IMG/VR virus record: IMGVR_UViG_3300028193_000008 | Span: 1 to 22,836 of that record | Direction: 5' to 3' (one strand) | DNA: 22,836 bases | From: a virus | Shown: positions 18,110 to 22,368 of the stretch, piece after piece | How positions within the stretch are numbered: position 1 is the stretch's first letter | How the letters are laid out: every line of letters starts with the position of its first letter | Made by a program: the position numbers and the translations under genes | The notes under the pieces: model-generated | The model's database searches: none | Told to the model about the DNA's origin: nothing | Seen by the model: the letters and a program-made list of their open reading frames with translations, nothing else

Positions 18110-18907
18110 TTATTTGTTCTGTCCTGCCATCTGTCTCAATATATCCGCCATCTTGCCGATGCCTTCCTTCTTGAATTTATTACTCTGCTCGACATTCGCC
18201 CGAGCAAAATAAGCCGAGCTTTCCATCTTAAGCACTTTGATAAACCAGGGGTAAGGCTGGCTAATCCTGCCCTTGTCCTTCTGATACTGCTGGCAGATCT
18301 TGATCAAAACCTCATCCGGTATATTCTCCTTCTTGTGCCATTTAGCGTCTTTCTTGAATTTATTAATAAGCTGGTAGATATTGAATCCCTGCTTATAAAC
18401 AGAATCTAAGAGTTTTTGAGTCTTTTCAGAAACAGCGGAAGCTGGCGAAGCCTGTTTACTAACTATCTCTTTCCCATTCTCTTTCCCATCCCCATCCCCA
18501 TTCCCAACTGAGATATTCGTAGCGTAACGGTTATTTAACGGTTGCTTAACGGTTAAAAGCTCTTTAGGTGGGGGTGGGATATCACTGTCCCGCTCTGTCT
18601 TGTGGGGTTTTTGATGTTTTTGCCAGTTGATTATCTGATAATATTTCTCGCCGTCGATTTCATAACGGACTATAAACGGTCTTTTACCGTTCTTCTTGTG
18701 ATGAGCCAAGAGCCGCATTATTTCTTCGGCATTGACCTCATCATAGGGCATGATTTCTATCTTAAGCCGCTCCGGTCTGTCTTCACCGCGCCCCTCTCGA
18801 TCAGCCTGAATCCATAAGCCCTGATAAAATAACCTTGCCTCAAAGGACAATTCTTTTATATCTTCATCTTTAAAAAAATCCGGTTTTAAGTATCTTATTC
18901 TTGCCAT
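18110..18907 (-). CDS. Replication initiator / replisome organiser-like protein
   Basis: The 265-aa protein starts MARIRYLKPDFFKDEDIKEL and continues with SFEARLFYQGLWIQADREGR. This opening belongs to a common phage replication protein family with an N-terminal winged helix. Then comes a Pro-rich and Ser/Asn-rich linker at about 110-160, and a C-terminal helical part (about 165-240) with PYPWFIKVLKMES, as in DnaD-like modules. It probably binds the phage origin, and may load host helicase. No helicase or helicase loader gene is in the window, so host proteins would be needed. An origin may lie inside this gene, but I do not see clear iterons. Confidence 0.8.
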   Translation of the reverse strand: MARIRYLKPDFFKDEDIKELSFEARLFYQGLWIQADREGRGEDRPERLKIEIMPYDEVNAEEIMRLLAHHKKNGKRPFIVRYEIDGEKYYQIINWQKHQKPHKTERDSDIPPPPKELLTVKQPLNNRYATNISVGNGDGDGKENGKEIVSKQASPASAVSEKTQKLLDSVYKQGFNIYQLINKFKKDAKWHKKENIPDEVLIKICQQYQKDKGRISQPYPWFIKVLKMESSAYFARANVEQSNKFKKEGIGKMADILRQMAGQNK

Positions 18908-19138: not shown

Positions 19139-19247
19139 TGTTCACCCTCCTGCGCTTGCTCTTTTTGCAATTCGCCTCTAAGAGCCTCATGCGGTTATAC
19201 CAGCTGAGCCGCTTATAGAGTTTCTTTAGTCCTCGAGTGACCTTCAT
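19128..19247 (-). CDS. Possible 39-aa basic microprotein
   Basis: An ATG at 19247 with an AAAGGG 7 bases upstream opens a 39-codon frame ending at a TAA. It overlaps the 3' end of the upstream 96-aa gene and the 5' end of the downstream 74-aa gene by a few codons each, filling the gap between them. The product is very basic (many Lys and Arg with WYNRMRLL in the middle). The tight bridging is typical of phage early operons. It could also be chance. Confidence 0.42.
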   Translation of the reverse strand: MKVTRGLKKLYKRLSWYNRMRLLEANCKKSKRRRVNNEQ

Positions 19248-19503
19248 CTCTTACCCTTTCTACCGTGAATGACTGCTCTCCATACTCTTTGATAAGAAGC
19301 CCGGTAAAAACCTCTGCAATATGTTCACCAACCGGACTTGAGACATCAATAACAACCTTGTTGTCTGCCGCAACGTAGGCCGCATTGAGCCTGACCTTTG
19401 CCTGGCCAAATGTGCATTCAGCGGAAATAACCGCAAAGGCAATTTTTTCCTCTACCTGTTCACGGTGTAATTTTTTATTGAGCTTGAACCTGCAAACTTG
19501 CAT
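19213..19503 (-). CDS. Conserved-looking small early protein, unknown
   Basis: The 96-aa protein has a strong GAGGAGGAG ribosome site just after a copy of the bipartite promoter/operator element. It looks like a small alpha/beta fold: an N-terminal basic strand, a hydrophobic strand (IAFAVISAECTFG), then VVIDVSSPVGEHIAEVFTGLL. I do not recognise a family. It is the first gene of the early/replication transcript and would be expressed whenever the upstream element is active. Confidence 0.65.
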   Translation of the reverse strand: MQVCRFKLNKKLHREQVEEKIAFAVISAECTFGQAKVRLNAAYVAADNKVVIDVSSPVGEHIAEVFTGLLIKEYGEQSFTVERVRDEGHSRTKETL

Positions 19504-19521: not shown

Positions 19522-19556
19522 GCGTATATTCCGGAAAGTTCCCGAAAGTGTCGGAA
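19522..19556 (-). promoter_or_regulatory. Bipartite promoter/operator element, copy A (before the early/replication genes)
   Basis: On the minus strand it reads CCGACA-N14-CCGGAATATAC. The longer 35-base copy is shared with the element at 20483-20517 (GCGTATATTCCGGAAA and AAAGTGTCGGAA with the same 7-base gap). Three related 8-mers (TTCCGGAA, TTCCCGAA, TGTCGGAA) start at 19529, 19539 and 19549, exactly 10 bases apart. The 96-aa gene starts 19 bases further downstream with almost no leader left. Confidence 0.7.
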
Positions 19557-19563
19557 TTTTTTT

Positions 19564-20145
19564 TCAATCGAGATACTCGTTAAGTTTCTCCTGCTGGAAT
19601 ATGGCTTTAATACGCTTAATGTCTTCGTAGAGAGTTCCCCGAGGAATCTTAAGCGCTTCACTTGCCTCCTTAATGTTTAAGCCCTCTTCGCCTAAAAGGC
19701 GGCATAGCTCCTGTTGTTTCGGGGTTAGTTTTTGGATGCTTTTGGAAAGATCGATTTTGAGGTCCGAGCTGATATGCAGATTTGAGATATGGCCTGCGTT
19801 TTCTGGGAGCTGATCTAAATAGGTGGGCGAGTCCTCTTCATCCGAAATCGACTCGTTTAATGACACACAATTACTCGATACTTTGCGCTTATGTGCGGTA
19901 AGTTTTGCAACTAATCGCTGGAGCTTATGCTCCAGAACCCGGGACATAAACGTTCGTATATTTGCCCCTGCGGAAGGATCGTAATCATCTTTTGAAAAGT
20001 GCCAGTAGGTTAGGCATTCCTGAAGAAGATCGTCGAAACCTTCCAACTCTAAGCATTTCCACTGCTTTCTGAACCGCTCAATTACATTTTTTGCTACTCC
20101 AATTTCCCAGTCTTCAAATAGACTTTCGTACCTTGGACTCATCAT
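19564..20145 (-). CDS. Sigma-factor-like protein, candidate phage transcription regulator
   Basis: The 193-aa protein looks like a short sigma-70-type factor. Residues 37-85 resemble region 2 (FDDLLQECLTYWHFSKDDYD, then SAGANIRTFMSRVLEHKLQR). Residues 139-180 resemble region 4 with a helix-turn-helix (LTPKQQELCRLLGEEGLNIK, then EASEALKIPRGTLYEDIKRIK). The linker is acidic. The ATG pair at 20145/20142 follows an exact GAGGAGG; the longer TTG start at 20178 lacks such a site. It lies between two copies of the bipartite element, so it may read from that promoter or control it. It could instead be an ordinary sigma-related regulator with another target. Confidence 0.75.
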   Translation of the reverse strand: MMSPRYESLFEDWEIGVAKNVIERFRKQWKCLELEGFDDLLQECLTYWHFSKDDYDPSAGANIRTFMSRVLEHKLQRLVAKLTAHKRKVSSNCVSLNESISDEEDSPTYLDQLPENAGHISNLHISSDLKIDLSKSIQKLTPKQQELCRLLGEEGLNIKEASEALKIPRGTLYEDIKRIKAIFQQEKLNEYLD

Positions 20146-20177
20146 GAGACACCTCCTCTTTTTTTGGTGGTGTCTCA
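20145..20177 (-). promoter_or_regulatory. Inverted repeat covering the ribosome site of the sigma-like gene
   Basis: TGAGACACC at one end and GGTGTCTCA at the other pair perfectly (9 bp) around a 15-base loop. The right-hand RNA arm includes the GG of the ribosome site and the A of the start codon, so the folded RNA would hide the start. It could also be a DNA operator. Confidence 0.6.
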
Positions 20178-20218
20178 AGCAAGCCCCTGATAAGAATACT
20201 TTTTTAAACAGTAGGAGT

Positions 20219-20242
20219 AAATCACGGAGGGCTCCGTGATTT
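20219..20242 (-). terminator. Hairpin at the end of the 74-aa gene
   Basis: AAATCACGGA and TCCGTGATTT pair perfectly (10 bp, 4-base loop) and overlap the TAA of the 74-aa gene. Only a weak T-tract follows on either strand, so it may attenuate transcription into the sigma-like gene rather than end it. Confidence 0.5.
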
Positions 20243-20465
20243 AAGTTTTCTGACGAGGTTTAGCTTTAGATAAATCGGTAAGACCGAGTAACTCATCCTG
20301 TGTCGGTTCACGCCGAATGATTCCAGCAATCACCTGCGTAATGGCTTTTACCAGCACCTCACCCCGCGTTCTTTGCTCGGTTAGGTTGCGTGGTCGATCG
20401 GTATAAACCGCAGAGATTCGGTCTCCAAAGCGTTTTTGAAATTGACTCACTAATGGCTTGCCCAT
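20241..20465 (-). CDS. Small protein of unknown function at the head of the sigma-like operon
   Basis: The 74-aa protein is short and helical, with a basic N-terminal half (QFQKRFGDRISAVYTDRPRN) and a helix around GEVLVKAITQVIAGIIRREP. I do not recognise a family; its size and place suit an early regulator. The ATG at 20465 is 9 bases after a GGGGGTGA ribosome site; an ATG two codons earlier is too close to it. It follows a copy of the bipartite element with almost no leader. Confidence 0.6.
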   Translation of the reverse strand: MGKPLVSQFQKRFGDRISAVYTDRPRNLTEQRTRGEVLVKAITQVIAGIIRREPTQDELLGLTDLSKAKPRQKT

Positions 20466-20483
20466 TGGCATTCACCCCCAAGC

Positions 20484-20551
20484 GTATATTCCGGAAATAT
20501 GAAAAAAGTGTCGGAAAAAACCGACATAAATTCAAAAAAACCGGAATATAC
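20484..20551. promoter_or_regulatory. Perfect 68-bp dyad of two bipartite elements between integrase and the sigma-like operon
   Basis: GTATATTCCGG (20484-20494) and CCGGAATATAC (20541-20551) are perfect reverse complements. So are TGTCGG (20509-20514) and CCGACA (20521-20526). All are symmetric about 20517.5, with 14-base gaps on both sides and six A at the centre. Read outward on each strand it gives CCGACA-N14-CCGGAATATAC, the same element as copy A at 19522-19556. The left half faces the 74-aa/sigma-like genes and the right half faces the integrase. Confidence 0.8.
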
Positions 20552-20552
20552 A

Positions 20553-20584
20553 ATTAAGCCCGCCTAAAAGCTGGCGGGCTTAAT
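20553..20584 (+). promoter_or_regulatory. Strong hairpin in the integrase leader
   Basis: ATTAAGCCCGCC and GGCGGGCTTAAT form a perfect 12-bp stem with an 8-base loop, directly after the rightward half of the dyad. There is no T-run, so it is not a plain terminator. It would sit at the very 5' end of integrase mRNA and could limit expression or protect the RNA. Confidence 0.6.
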
Positions 20585-20646
20585 ATCGCTTGACTTGTCC
20601 AATGAATTGTTATAGGGGTTGTTGTGAAAGGAGAGCCAATAATACT

Positions 20647-22368
20647 ATGATAGTACCCGCTGAAAACAAAGATAGAAAACGATTCATTATTTACACCAGA
20701 TGCTCAACTGACGATCAGGCCCAGGGCGACTTCACAACCCTTGATGCCCAGGCTCACCACTGCAAGAACATGCTTGATGCGTTCGGTTATGAAATTGCTA
20801 ATTTCGGGAACAAAGGGATTGTGAATGAGGATGGATATTCGGGGAAGGATTTAAACCGACCGGGTATTCAGTCGATTCTGAAAGACATCCGATCAAAAAA
20901 GTCATTCGATGGTATCATATTTTTTAGACTTGATCGCCTGACAAGAAATCCTCGTGACCTCTACGCTATGATTGACCTGTTTAAGGAACACGAGGTTAAC
21001 TTCTTATCTGTGCGTGAAAATCTGGACAGCTCAACCGCCATAGGGCGTGTGGTTATTGGCATCATCGGGTTGTTATCTGCTTTTGAACGTGAACTCACCG
21101 GAGAGCGTGTCAAGGCATCGGCAATTGCCCGGGCAAGACAAGGCAAATGGGTTGCAGGTAATCCCCCTTACGGATATAAACTAGTCAAAAACGGCGATCC
21201 TCTTCCCAACGGTAGACAACCGCACCGGATTGAAATTGATAAGACAATCGCACAAAGCATTAAACTCATCTTTGAACTGGCCGCTAAAAATAAGACCTTA
21301 AGTGAAATAGGCCATATACTCATACAGAATAAAGTCCCGACATCTAAAAGCATGGTCTGGCGAAAACAAACAATTGCCAAAATTATCAAAAATACCTTCT
21401 ATAAAGGCATGATTTCTTATTCCGGCGAGATAAACAAAGGCAACCACACCGGAATCGTTGATGAAGACCTATGGAAAAAAGCTAACCGGGTAATCTCAGC
21501 AAACCTTCCCGGACACAGATTCATAAAAGTACCTAAAGACTACAGTAATCGACTAAAGGGAATATTAAAGTGTGGGAAATGCGGGAGTTTCTTTGTCTCG
21601 ACTATAGCTCATAGCCATACCGGAAAAACTTTTTATTACTATGAGTGCAGTCGGGCGAGACAAAAGCTCGGGTGTGATACCAAGCGGATATCCGCTACGG
21701 CATTTGATGAAGCGGTAATTGCTTTCTTTAGGCGGGCATCAAAAGACCAGGAAATTATCGTGAAAGCGATGGGGAATGCGATTAAAGATAATACGACCAA
21801 ACTGGAAGTCTATGATAAGGAAATCCGGATATTGCAAAAGAAACTTGCCAAAGCCAAAGCATCCGCAGAAAAACTATTAAACCTTGCCATTGAAAAGACG
21901 ATCACAAAAGGCGTTACCTACTCTGAAAAGATGGACGCTTTTGAAAAAGAACTCACCATATTGGAAGATAAATTGTCTAAGGTTGAGGCACATAGACGAG
22001 TCACTGATATATCGATGCATTCCAGTCAATATTTGTATTCAAATCTTAGATTTGCCATGGAGCATCTGGACGAGGCCCCGCCTGAGGCTCAAAATAACCT
22101 GCTAAGAGCCCTGATCAAAGCCATAGACGTCCACGACGACCACGTAATAATGCGGATGTATGTGGGAGAACCCTTTGAAGAAATTGCCTGCCAAATAGAC
22201 CCAGAAAAAAAGAAAACCCTGCCCGGTACTGATAACAGTACAGGACAGGGTTCTCCTGAGCGTCCACAATGGCGGAGAGGCAGGGATTTGAACCCTGGGT
22301 ACCCTTGCGAGTACTCCTGCTCTCCAAGCAGGTGCACTAAACCACTATGCGACCCCTCCGCGGAATGA
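20647..22368 (+). CDS. Large serine recombinase, phage integrase
   Basis: With the start at 20647, the frame encodes 573 aa. Domains: N-terminal resolvase domain at about 10-150 with catalytic Ser20 in YTRCSTDDQ and the FFRLDRLTRN motif; recombinase domain at about 165-290 (GNPPYGYKL); zinc ribbon with Cys at about 309, 312, 334 and 343; and a coiled coil at about 381-445. Large serine integrases insert and, with a directionality factor, excise phage DNA at attP/attB. An AAAGGAG lies 13 bases before the ATG; longer N-terminal options from 20590 lack a ribosome site. From about residue 523 to the end, the frame reads the antisense of the tRNA terminator and the tRNA-Ser. The native end of the protein is therefore doubtful. 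The gene is the only plus-strand phage gene. Confidence 0.93.
   Translation: MIVPAENKDRKRFIIYTRCSTDDQAQGDFTTLDAQAHHCKNMLDAFGYEIANFGNKGIVNEDGYSGKDLNRPGIQSILKDIRSKKSFDGIIFFRLDRLTRNPRDLYAMIDLFKEHEVNFLSVRENLDSSTAIGRVVIGIIGLLSAFERELTGERVKASAIARARQGKWVAGNPPYGYKLVKNGDPLPNGRQPHRIEIDKTIAQSIKLIFELAAKNKTLSEIGHILIQNKVPTSKSMVWRKQTIAKIIKNTFYKGMISYSGEINKGNHTGIVDEDLWKKANRVISANLPGHRFIKVPKDYSNRLKGILKCGKCGSFFVSTIAHSHTGKTFYYYECSRARQKLGCDTKRISATAFDEAVIAFFRRASKDQEIIVKAMGNAIKDNTTKLEVYDKEIRILQKKLAKAKASAEKLLNLAIEKTITKGVTYSEKMDAFEKELTILEDKLSKVEAHRRVTDISMHSSQYLYSNLRFAMEHLDEAPPEAQNNLLRALIKAIDVHDDHVIMRMYVGEPFEEIACQIDPEKKKTLPGTDNSTGQGSPERPQWRRGRDLNPGYPCEYSCSPSRCTKPLCDPSAE
22207..22252 (-). terminator. Rho-independent terminator of the tRNA-Ser gene
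   Basis: On the minus strand AACCCTG pairs with CAGGGTT, and GTACTG with CAGTAC around a TTAT loop, with two more G-C pairs possible between them. It is followed by TTTTCTTTTTTT. It lies 17 bases after the tRNA's CCA. It also lies inside the 3' end of the integrase frame. Confidence 0.85.
22270..22359 (-). tRNA. tRNA-Ser, anticodon GGA, with encoded CCA
   Basis: The 90-base gene folds as a full class II tRNA: acceptor stem GGAGGGG with CCTCTCC (one G-T), D stem GCA with TGC, anticodon stem CCTGC with GCAGG around TTGGAGA, a long variable arm (GTACTC with GGGTAC), and a T arm CAGGG with CCCTG around TTCAAAT. Discriminator G is followed by CCA. The gene is intact and read away from the host side toward the prophage, the usual arrangement when an element sits at the 3' side of a tRNA gene. 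A TATAGT (-10-like) lies about 15 bases upstream. Confidence 0.95.

Follow-up and report, generated by a model that had tools for sequence, protein, structure and literature searches.

Which protein reads a short two-box DNA element that occurs three times around a sigma-like gene in a viral genome? The window analyzed here, which is a complete IMG/VR record of 22,836 nucleotides, has the gene content of a temperate phage or prophage, with genes for a serine integrase, a 74-aa protein (p74), a sigma-like protein, a 96-aa protein (p96), a replication protein, a ParB-methylase and a terminase. The original prediction for this locus offered two options, namely that the element is a phage-specific promoter read by the sigma-like protein or that it is one operator shared by the transcription units that it faces. 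Based on comparisons among relatives, we consider it highly probable that an ECF-type sigma factor encoded by the phage reads the element as its -35/-10 promoter, which would drive the integrase, the operon of the sigma factor itself and the early/lytic operon.

A repeated two-box element and a sigma-like gene

The element consists of box 1 (CCGACA), a gap of 14 bases and box 2 (CCGGAATATAC), and each of the three predicted copies is an exact match (Table 1). Allowing up to three mismatches returned the same three copies and none more, against an expectation of 0.02 from dinucleotide shuffles. As the original prediction had stated, the boxes and their spacing are identical in all copies while the gap sequence differs, with the gaps sharing 2-8 of 14 bases. 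The sigma-like gene was likewise confirmed to lie between elements, in the order integrase (plus strand) followed by p74, the sigma-like gene and p96 (minus strand). Copy 1 faces the p96 gene and the replication, packaging and structural genes downstream, and box 1 of copy 3 stands back to back with box 1 of copy 2. Copy 1 recurs in relatives with the same position and box type.

Table 1. Positions of the candidate promoter elements, genes and other features of the control region in the window.
Feature	Position	Strand	Details
Candidate promoter element, copy 1	19524..19554	-	box 1 (-35) CCGACA 19549-19554; box 2 (-10) CCGGAATATAC 19524-19534
Candidate promoter element, copy 2	20484..20514	-	box 1 20509-20514; box 2 20484-20494; faces p74/sigma operon
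Candidate promoter element, copy 3	20521..20551	+	box 1 20521-20526; box 2 20541-20551; faces integrase
ECF-type sigma factor, 193 aa	19564..20145	-	regions 2 and 4, flexible linker; TIGR02937, AF2/Foldseek, FDDLLQE
p74, first gene of sigma operon	20241..20465	-	family alignment with REPTxxEL motif
p96, first gene behind copy 1	19213..19503	-	
Large serine recombinase (integrase)	20647..22368	+	faced by copy 3; Pfam Resolvase, Recombinase, Zn_ribbon_recom; PHROG 95 integrase
Replication initiation protein	18110..18907	-	in unit behind copy 1; phrog_16167, E 2e-36
Hairpin over sigma Shine-Dalgarno	20146..20176	-	GAGACACC...GGTGTCTC; in most relatives
24-base palindrome	20219..20242	-	AAATCACGGAGCCCTCCGTGATTT; just after p74 stop, before sigma gene

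A ribosome site had been predicted close behind both minus-strand copies, and in the window a Shine-Dalgarno sequence begins 4-5 bases after box 2. The first ATG follows box 2 by 12 bases for p74 and by 20 bases for p96, and the conserved MGKP start of p74 lies a few bases beyond its first ATG. Among relatives, most copies that face p74 or p96 are followed by a ribosome site that begins 4-9 bases, and an ATG about 15-21 bases, after box 2, a spacing that can accommodate no more than a transcription start and a very short leader.

The sigma-like protein scores 48.2 bits against the TIGR02937 sigma70-ECF model, above its cut-off of 42.9. Sigma70_r2 is matched by 28 of 30 family members and Sigma70_r4_2 by 18 of 30, with the window member itself scoring under the Pfam cut-offs, and the broad phrog_1740 sigma family is matched by all 30 members scanned. 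Regions 2 and 4 are present in the 193-aa protein and region 3 is absent; the AF2 model comprises two helical domains and a disordered linker. The best PDB matches of this model in Foldseek are ECF sigma chains within RNA polymerase complexes (probability 1.00), with low TM-scores because the two sigma domains are not fixed relative to each other. The FDDLLQE core-binding stretch is nearly invariant across the family, and the window sigma has, upstream of its own gene, a two-box candidate promoter with a fixed gap, a feature of ECF (group 4) factors. Box 1 of the window, CCGACA, is not a -35 box of the GGAAC type, and among family members L041 and L044 alone have GGGAAC. The gene most likely starts at the ATG at 20145, and an upstream TTG was set aside in favor of that start.

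The p74 protein is small and helical, matches no known domain, family or fold and has no known relatives; an anti-sigma factor and a helper are both possibilities for its role. By eye, its conserved motif G-I-L-(K/G)-REPTxxELLG resembles sigma region 3.1. We rejected the idea that p74 is a detached sigma region 3, for which the motif likeness was weak and the profile support not significant (SigA, E 6). No CI-like repressor had been visible in the original prediction, and none of the control-region proteins scanned contains a repressor domain. A tRNA-Ser (GGA) gene on the minus strand at 22270-22359 overlaps the 3' end of the integrase reading frame and is a possible attachment site; this tRNA alone scored above the Rfam gathering score.

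Distribution and variation of the element among relatives

Searches with the sigma protein and its alignments identified about 35 distinct sigma relatives, of uncultivated phages and prophages, in viral contigs and MAGs, the latter with titles that name Omnitrophota/Omnitrophica (L024, L026), Deltaproteobacteria (L025) and Burkholderiales (L027). The sigma protein had no match in 50,697 annotated phage records (tblastn, E 1e-3), and plasmids yielded only two weak matches (25.8% identity, Methylobacterium). We sought the element in the relatives as gapped repeats, with no box sequence presupposed. Most relatives, down to about 33% sigma identity, have a two-box element with a 14-base gap at corresponding places, and most real pairs scored 15-16, against a maximum of 14 of 16 in shuffles. 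The layout features a divergent pair between the integrase and p74, to which the closer branches add a third copy just behind the sigma gene; of 34 phages tabulated, 19 have three copies, 13 have two and 2 have one. Entire records of up to 51 kb revealed no further copies.

Among the patterns that the original prediction had named as speaking against it are many unrelated copies in the host chromosome and absence of the element from relatives with the sigma gene. The 2.0-Mb Omnitrophota MAG that contains L024 has exactly three copies (up to two mismatches), all within the prophage cassette. The element is not absent from sigma-carrying relatives, save for a few short or distant loci: none was established in L033, L040 and L080, and L079 has a single uncertain one. 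In the reverse search, which used the exact element of three types, a sigma gene was present on 11 of 15 viral contigs, and the other four contigs had single matches apparently within coding DNA. The element and the sigma gene go together in both search directions. At L039:1304-1948, the sigma gene region contains an extra stretch and one in-frame stop, and the three elements there are intact.

Within a phage, 70 pairs of copies showed identities of 95% for box 1 and 91% for box 2, values that are inflated by the location of box copies through their match to a reference copy, and of 49% for the gap and 43-47% for the flanks. Boxes that agree amid dissimilar gaps and flanks speak against a longer repeat that is simply homologous or kept alike by gene conversion. 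Box identity falls to 55-60% between distant phages. Box 2 is of the CCGGAAT type in the window and L015-L017, GGGGAAT in L018 and L019 and GTCGTAT in L020; further types include CCGATAT behind GTGACA (L034-L036) and TCCGTAT behind CCGGCA (L042, L043, L054), among others. The change from CCGGAAT to GGGGAAT is found in every copy of L018, and that to GTCGTAT in every copy of L020. Box changes are thus shared by all copies within a phage, and the boxes track a reader that each phage encodes. Single-copy exceptions are the downstream copy of L025 and the integrase-facing copies of L030 and L047. The clearest break within a phage is at L025:4545-4575, the copy behind the sigma gene, where box 2 is CCGTAATACAC and the other two copies have GTCGTATATAT.

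Correspondence between the boxes and the sigma domains

We evaluated the link between boxes and sigma domains with partial Mantel tests that control for the rest of the protein, all of which are limited by shared ancestry. Box 1 distance correlated with region 4 (r 0.45, p 0.0002) and showed no link to region 2 (p 0.86), and box 2 distance correlated with region 2.3-2.4 (r 0.26, p 0.0004), with region 4 not clearly linked (p 0.08). When the set was reduced to one phage per 75% cluster (20 phages), the link of box 1 to region 4 remained (p 0.006), and that of box 2 to region 2 was not significant (p 0.13).

At the level of single residues, box 1 begins with G in 11 of 11 reference promoters whose sigma factor has Arg175, and with C or T in 23 of 23 whose sigma factor has an acidic residue or Ala at 175. 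This rule held in phages found after it had been set down, which have either Arg and G (L058, L082, L086 and L098, all counted among the 11) or Glu/Asp and C/T (L054, L070). Arg175 requires 4-5 changes on the tree; phylogenetically independent pairs were too few for significance, with the residue-175 pairs all concordant. Residue 174 shows a strong tendency with base 4 of box 1, with exceptions in L041/L044 and L082 and two L047 copies that differ. In an unbiased mutual-information ranking of all residue-base pairs, which is swamped by shared ancestry and rare letters, 175/base 1 came sixth and 174/base 4 twelfth. In our alignment, the window stretch GTLYEDIKR matches GTVMSRLHR of Mtb SigH, and residues 174 and 175 correspond to M181 and S182. 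In the SigH crystal structure, M181 and S182 contact the -35 element (PMC6411747); the co-varying residue 175, and less cleanly 174, aligns with such a contacting position. For box 2, a code based on sigma residue 74 alone (His/Asn; aligned with SigH N88) fitted the first set of phages well, failed in the larger one and was dropped.

Two natural chimeras combine the domains differently. L058 has region 4 and box 1 like those of L038 together with region 2 and box 2 like those of L030, and L060 joins an L023-like region 2 and box 2 to an L045/L050-like region 4 and box 1.

The three copies are placed as those of a shared operator would be, and in most cases copy 2 is followed first by p74, to which no function is assigned. 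In this reading, the element would be the operator of a repressor or co-regulator, whether p74, p96 or a protein not yet seen, that coordinates the three units, and the sigma-like protein would not be the reader. However, the boxes have no independent correlation with p74 or p96 distance, which contributed nothing when added to the Mantel tests and left the sigma links in place, and the element is retained where no p74 was found (L021, L022, L027), which in L027 extends to p96. The element is furthermore directional, at a fixed distance from the ribosome site, its two boxes follow two different sigma domains, and box 2 is non-palindromic in L018, L020 and L034. We regard the operator as very improbable, and of the two options originally offered it is the phage-specific promoter, with boxes that co-vary with two sigma regions at a fixed place upstream of the ribosome site, that the evidence supports.

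The weak Pfam scores of the window protein would also fit an activator that binds the element and works with the host sigma factor, as phage late regulators do, instead of replacing it, and box 1 alone would be sufficient for such binding. We consider this very unlikely, as both sigma regions and the core-binding region are conserved, TIGR02937 is matched above its cut-off, box 2 follows region 2.3-2.4 in the full set, and a consensus scan found no sigma-70-type promoter at the element sites. The possibility that the boxes are binding sites of the integrase or a replication protein (att arms, iterons) is suggested by their position next to the integrase and by their threefold repetition, but one copy lies behind the sigma gene, the fixed distance to ribosome sites is kept, and the box changes follow the sigma regions while the integrase and replication genes have other histories, which makes this explanation extremely unlikely.

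A divergent cassette and a proposed self-activating switch

In relatives with conserved neighboring genes, the p74-sigma-p96 segment has diverged far more than its neighbors to the left and right. Relative to the window, L036 shows identities of 81% for the integrase, 45% for p74, 48% for sigma, 53% for p96 and 80% for the ParB-methylase, and the corresponding values for L023 are 54%, 33%, 33%, 32% and 91%. The integrase is 53-81% identical in most relatives, which places it outside the hypervariable part. The phages with the closest sigma proteins have no related replication genes within the sequence stretch compared. One Omnitrophota MAG (G001) contains two members with different boxes, which are CCGACA/CCGGAAT in L024 and GCAACA/CCCGTAT in L098. 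An exchangeable specificity region would be expected to show such a pattern.

The hairpin over the sigma Shine-Dalgarno shows compensatory changes in 6 of 8 pairs, a count that is favored by the choice of arms for their pairing, and this conserved hairpin probably gates sigma translation. The 24-base palindrome is near-invariant in one branch of the family (about ten relatives) though the surrounding promoter boxes change; each of three MAGs searched has it at a single place, and it may be terminator-like or operator-like. In the integrase leader at 20590-20625, the motif CTTGACTTGT...TTATAGGG(T)TTG is common to nearly all relatives whose leader was read. This motif resembles a host-type promoter whose spacer is short, at about 15 bases, and could permit integration without the sigma factor. 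A twelve-pair hairpin at 20553-20584, directly downstream of the integrase-facing copy, is not kept in L020.

The element itself, its conserved architecture, its co-variation with two sigma domains and its restriction to the cassette are the observations on which we base a model. The phage sigma factor would bind the host RNA polymerase core, with region 4 reading box 1 and region 2 reading and melting box 2, 14 bases downstream, and transcription would start at the element. From the copy facing p74-sigma, the factor would start its own operon, which suggests positive feedback; from copy 1 it would start the early operon, which comprises p96, the replication genes and probably also the packaging and structural genes that follow, and from copy 3 the integrase, leading to excision. 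The element may in this manner couple integration, regulation and replication, which fits the positions of the copies. An active sigma factor would correspond to lytic growth and a loop that is off to quiescence, in which the hairpin over the sigma ribosome site would hold the loop off; the consensus scan found no evident host-type promoter on the minus strand to start the loop. Divergence of the cassette would keep phages in one host from cross-activating each other.

Because sigma and promoter change together across some 35 phages, in an exchangeable cassette, the locus looks like a self-activating switch that diversifies as immunity regions do. We tentatively propose that p74-sigma-p96 may be an immunity-like specificity region, in which the self-activating sigma loop would be off during lysogeny, kept shut by an RNA hairpin and perhaps also by p74, and diversification of the sigma/promoter pair would prevent phages in a shared host from waking or silencing one another. 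As in lambdoid immunity regions, a divergent hub lies beside the integrase, and the regulator and its DNA sites diversify together between conserved neighbors; unlike in those regions, an activator in the form of a sigma factor is the regulator, and no gene for a repressor was recognized.

In the lytic phages phiEco32 and 7-11, a phage sigma reads a small number of phage promoters. Some of these precede the sigma gene itself, which is therefore transcribed from both phage and host promoters (PMC4331800). The present system is similar in that a phage sigma would read few phage promoters. In contrast to their middle/late program, the window sigma is located at the integrase/early-control locus of integrase-bearing phages, with two or three promoters and an exchanged cassette, and a sequence relation was not detected (50,697 phage records, phiEco32 presumably among them, E 1e-3). 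Autoregulated ECF factors are common in bacteria (PMC5333181), and bacterial members such as Mtb SigH, E. coli sigma-E and B. subtilis SigW likewise have regions 2 and 4 only, a rigid-gap two-box promoter and a promoter for their own gene. The factors described here differ in that they are phage-borne, have -35 boxes of CCGACA, GTGACA or CCGGCA in most members in place of GGAAC, and have no recognized anti-sigma factor. Phage-carried sigma factors are also reported to alter sporulation by acting on dormancy genes of Bacillota hosts (PMC9429907), whereas the elements found here are confined to the phage cassette.

We found no description of this arrangement in the open-access literature. Phage sigma factors are already known, and the sigma/promoter arrangement in temperate phages and its diversification appear to be new; the features that seem new are the place (an integrase/early-control hub of integrase-bearing phages), a promoter set that is small and divergent, and a natural diversification that includes domain swaps. 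Because the family pairs some 35 variants of natural sigma factors, domain swaps among them, with their cognate promoters, the -35/-10 recognition code is readable from sequence and testable, and mutually orthogonal sigma/promoter pairs would be available as a ready set. If the role as a switch is true, temperate phages of poorly known bacteria rely on an activator loop for what a repressor does in well-studied phages.
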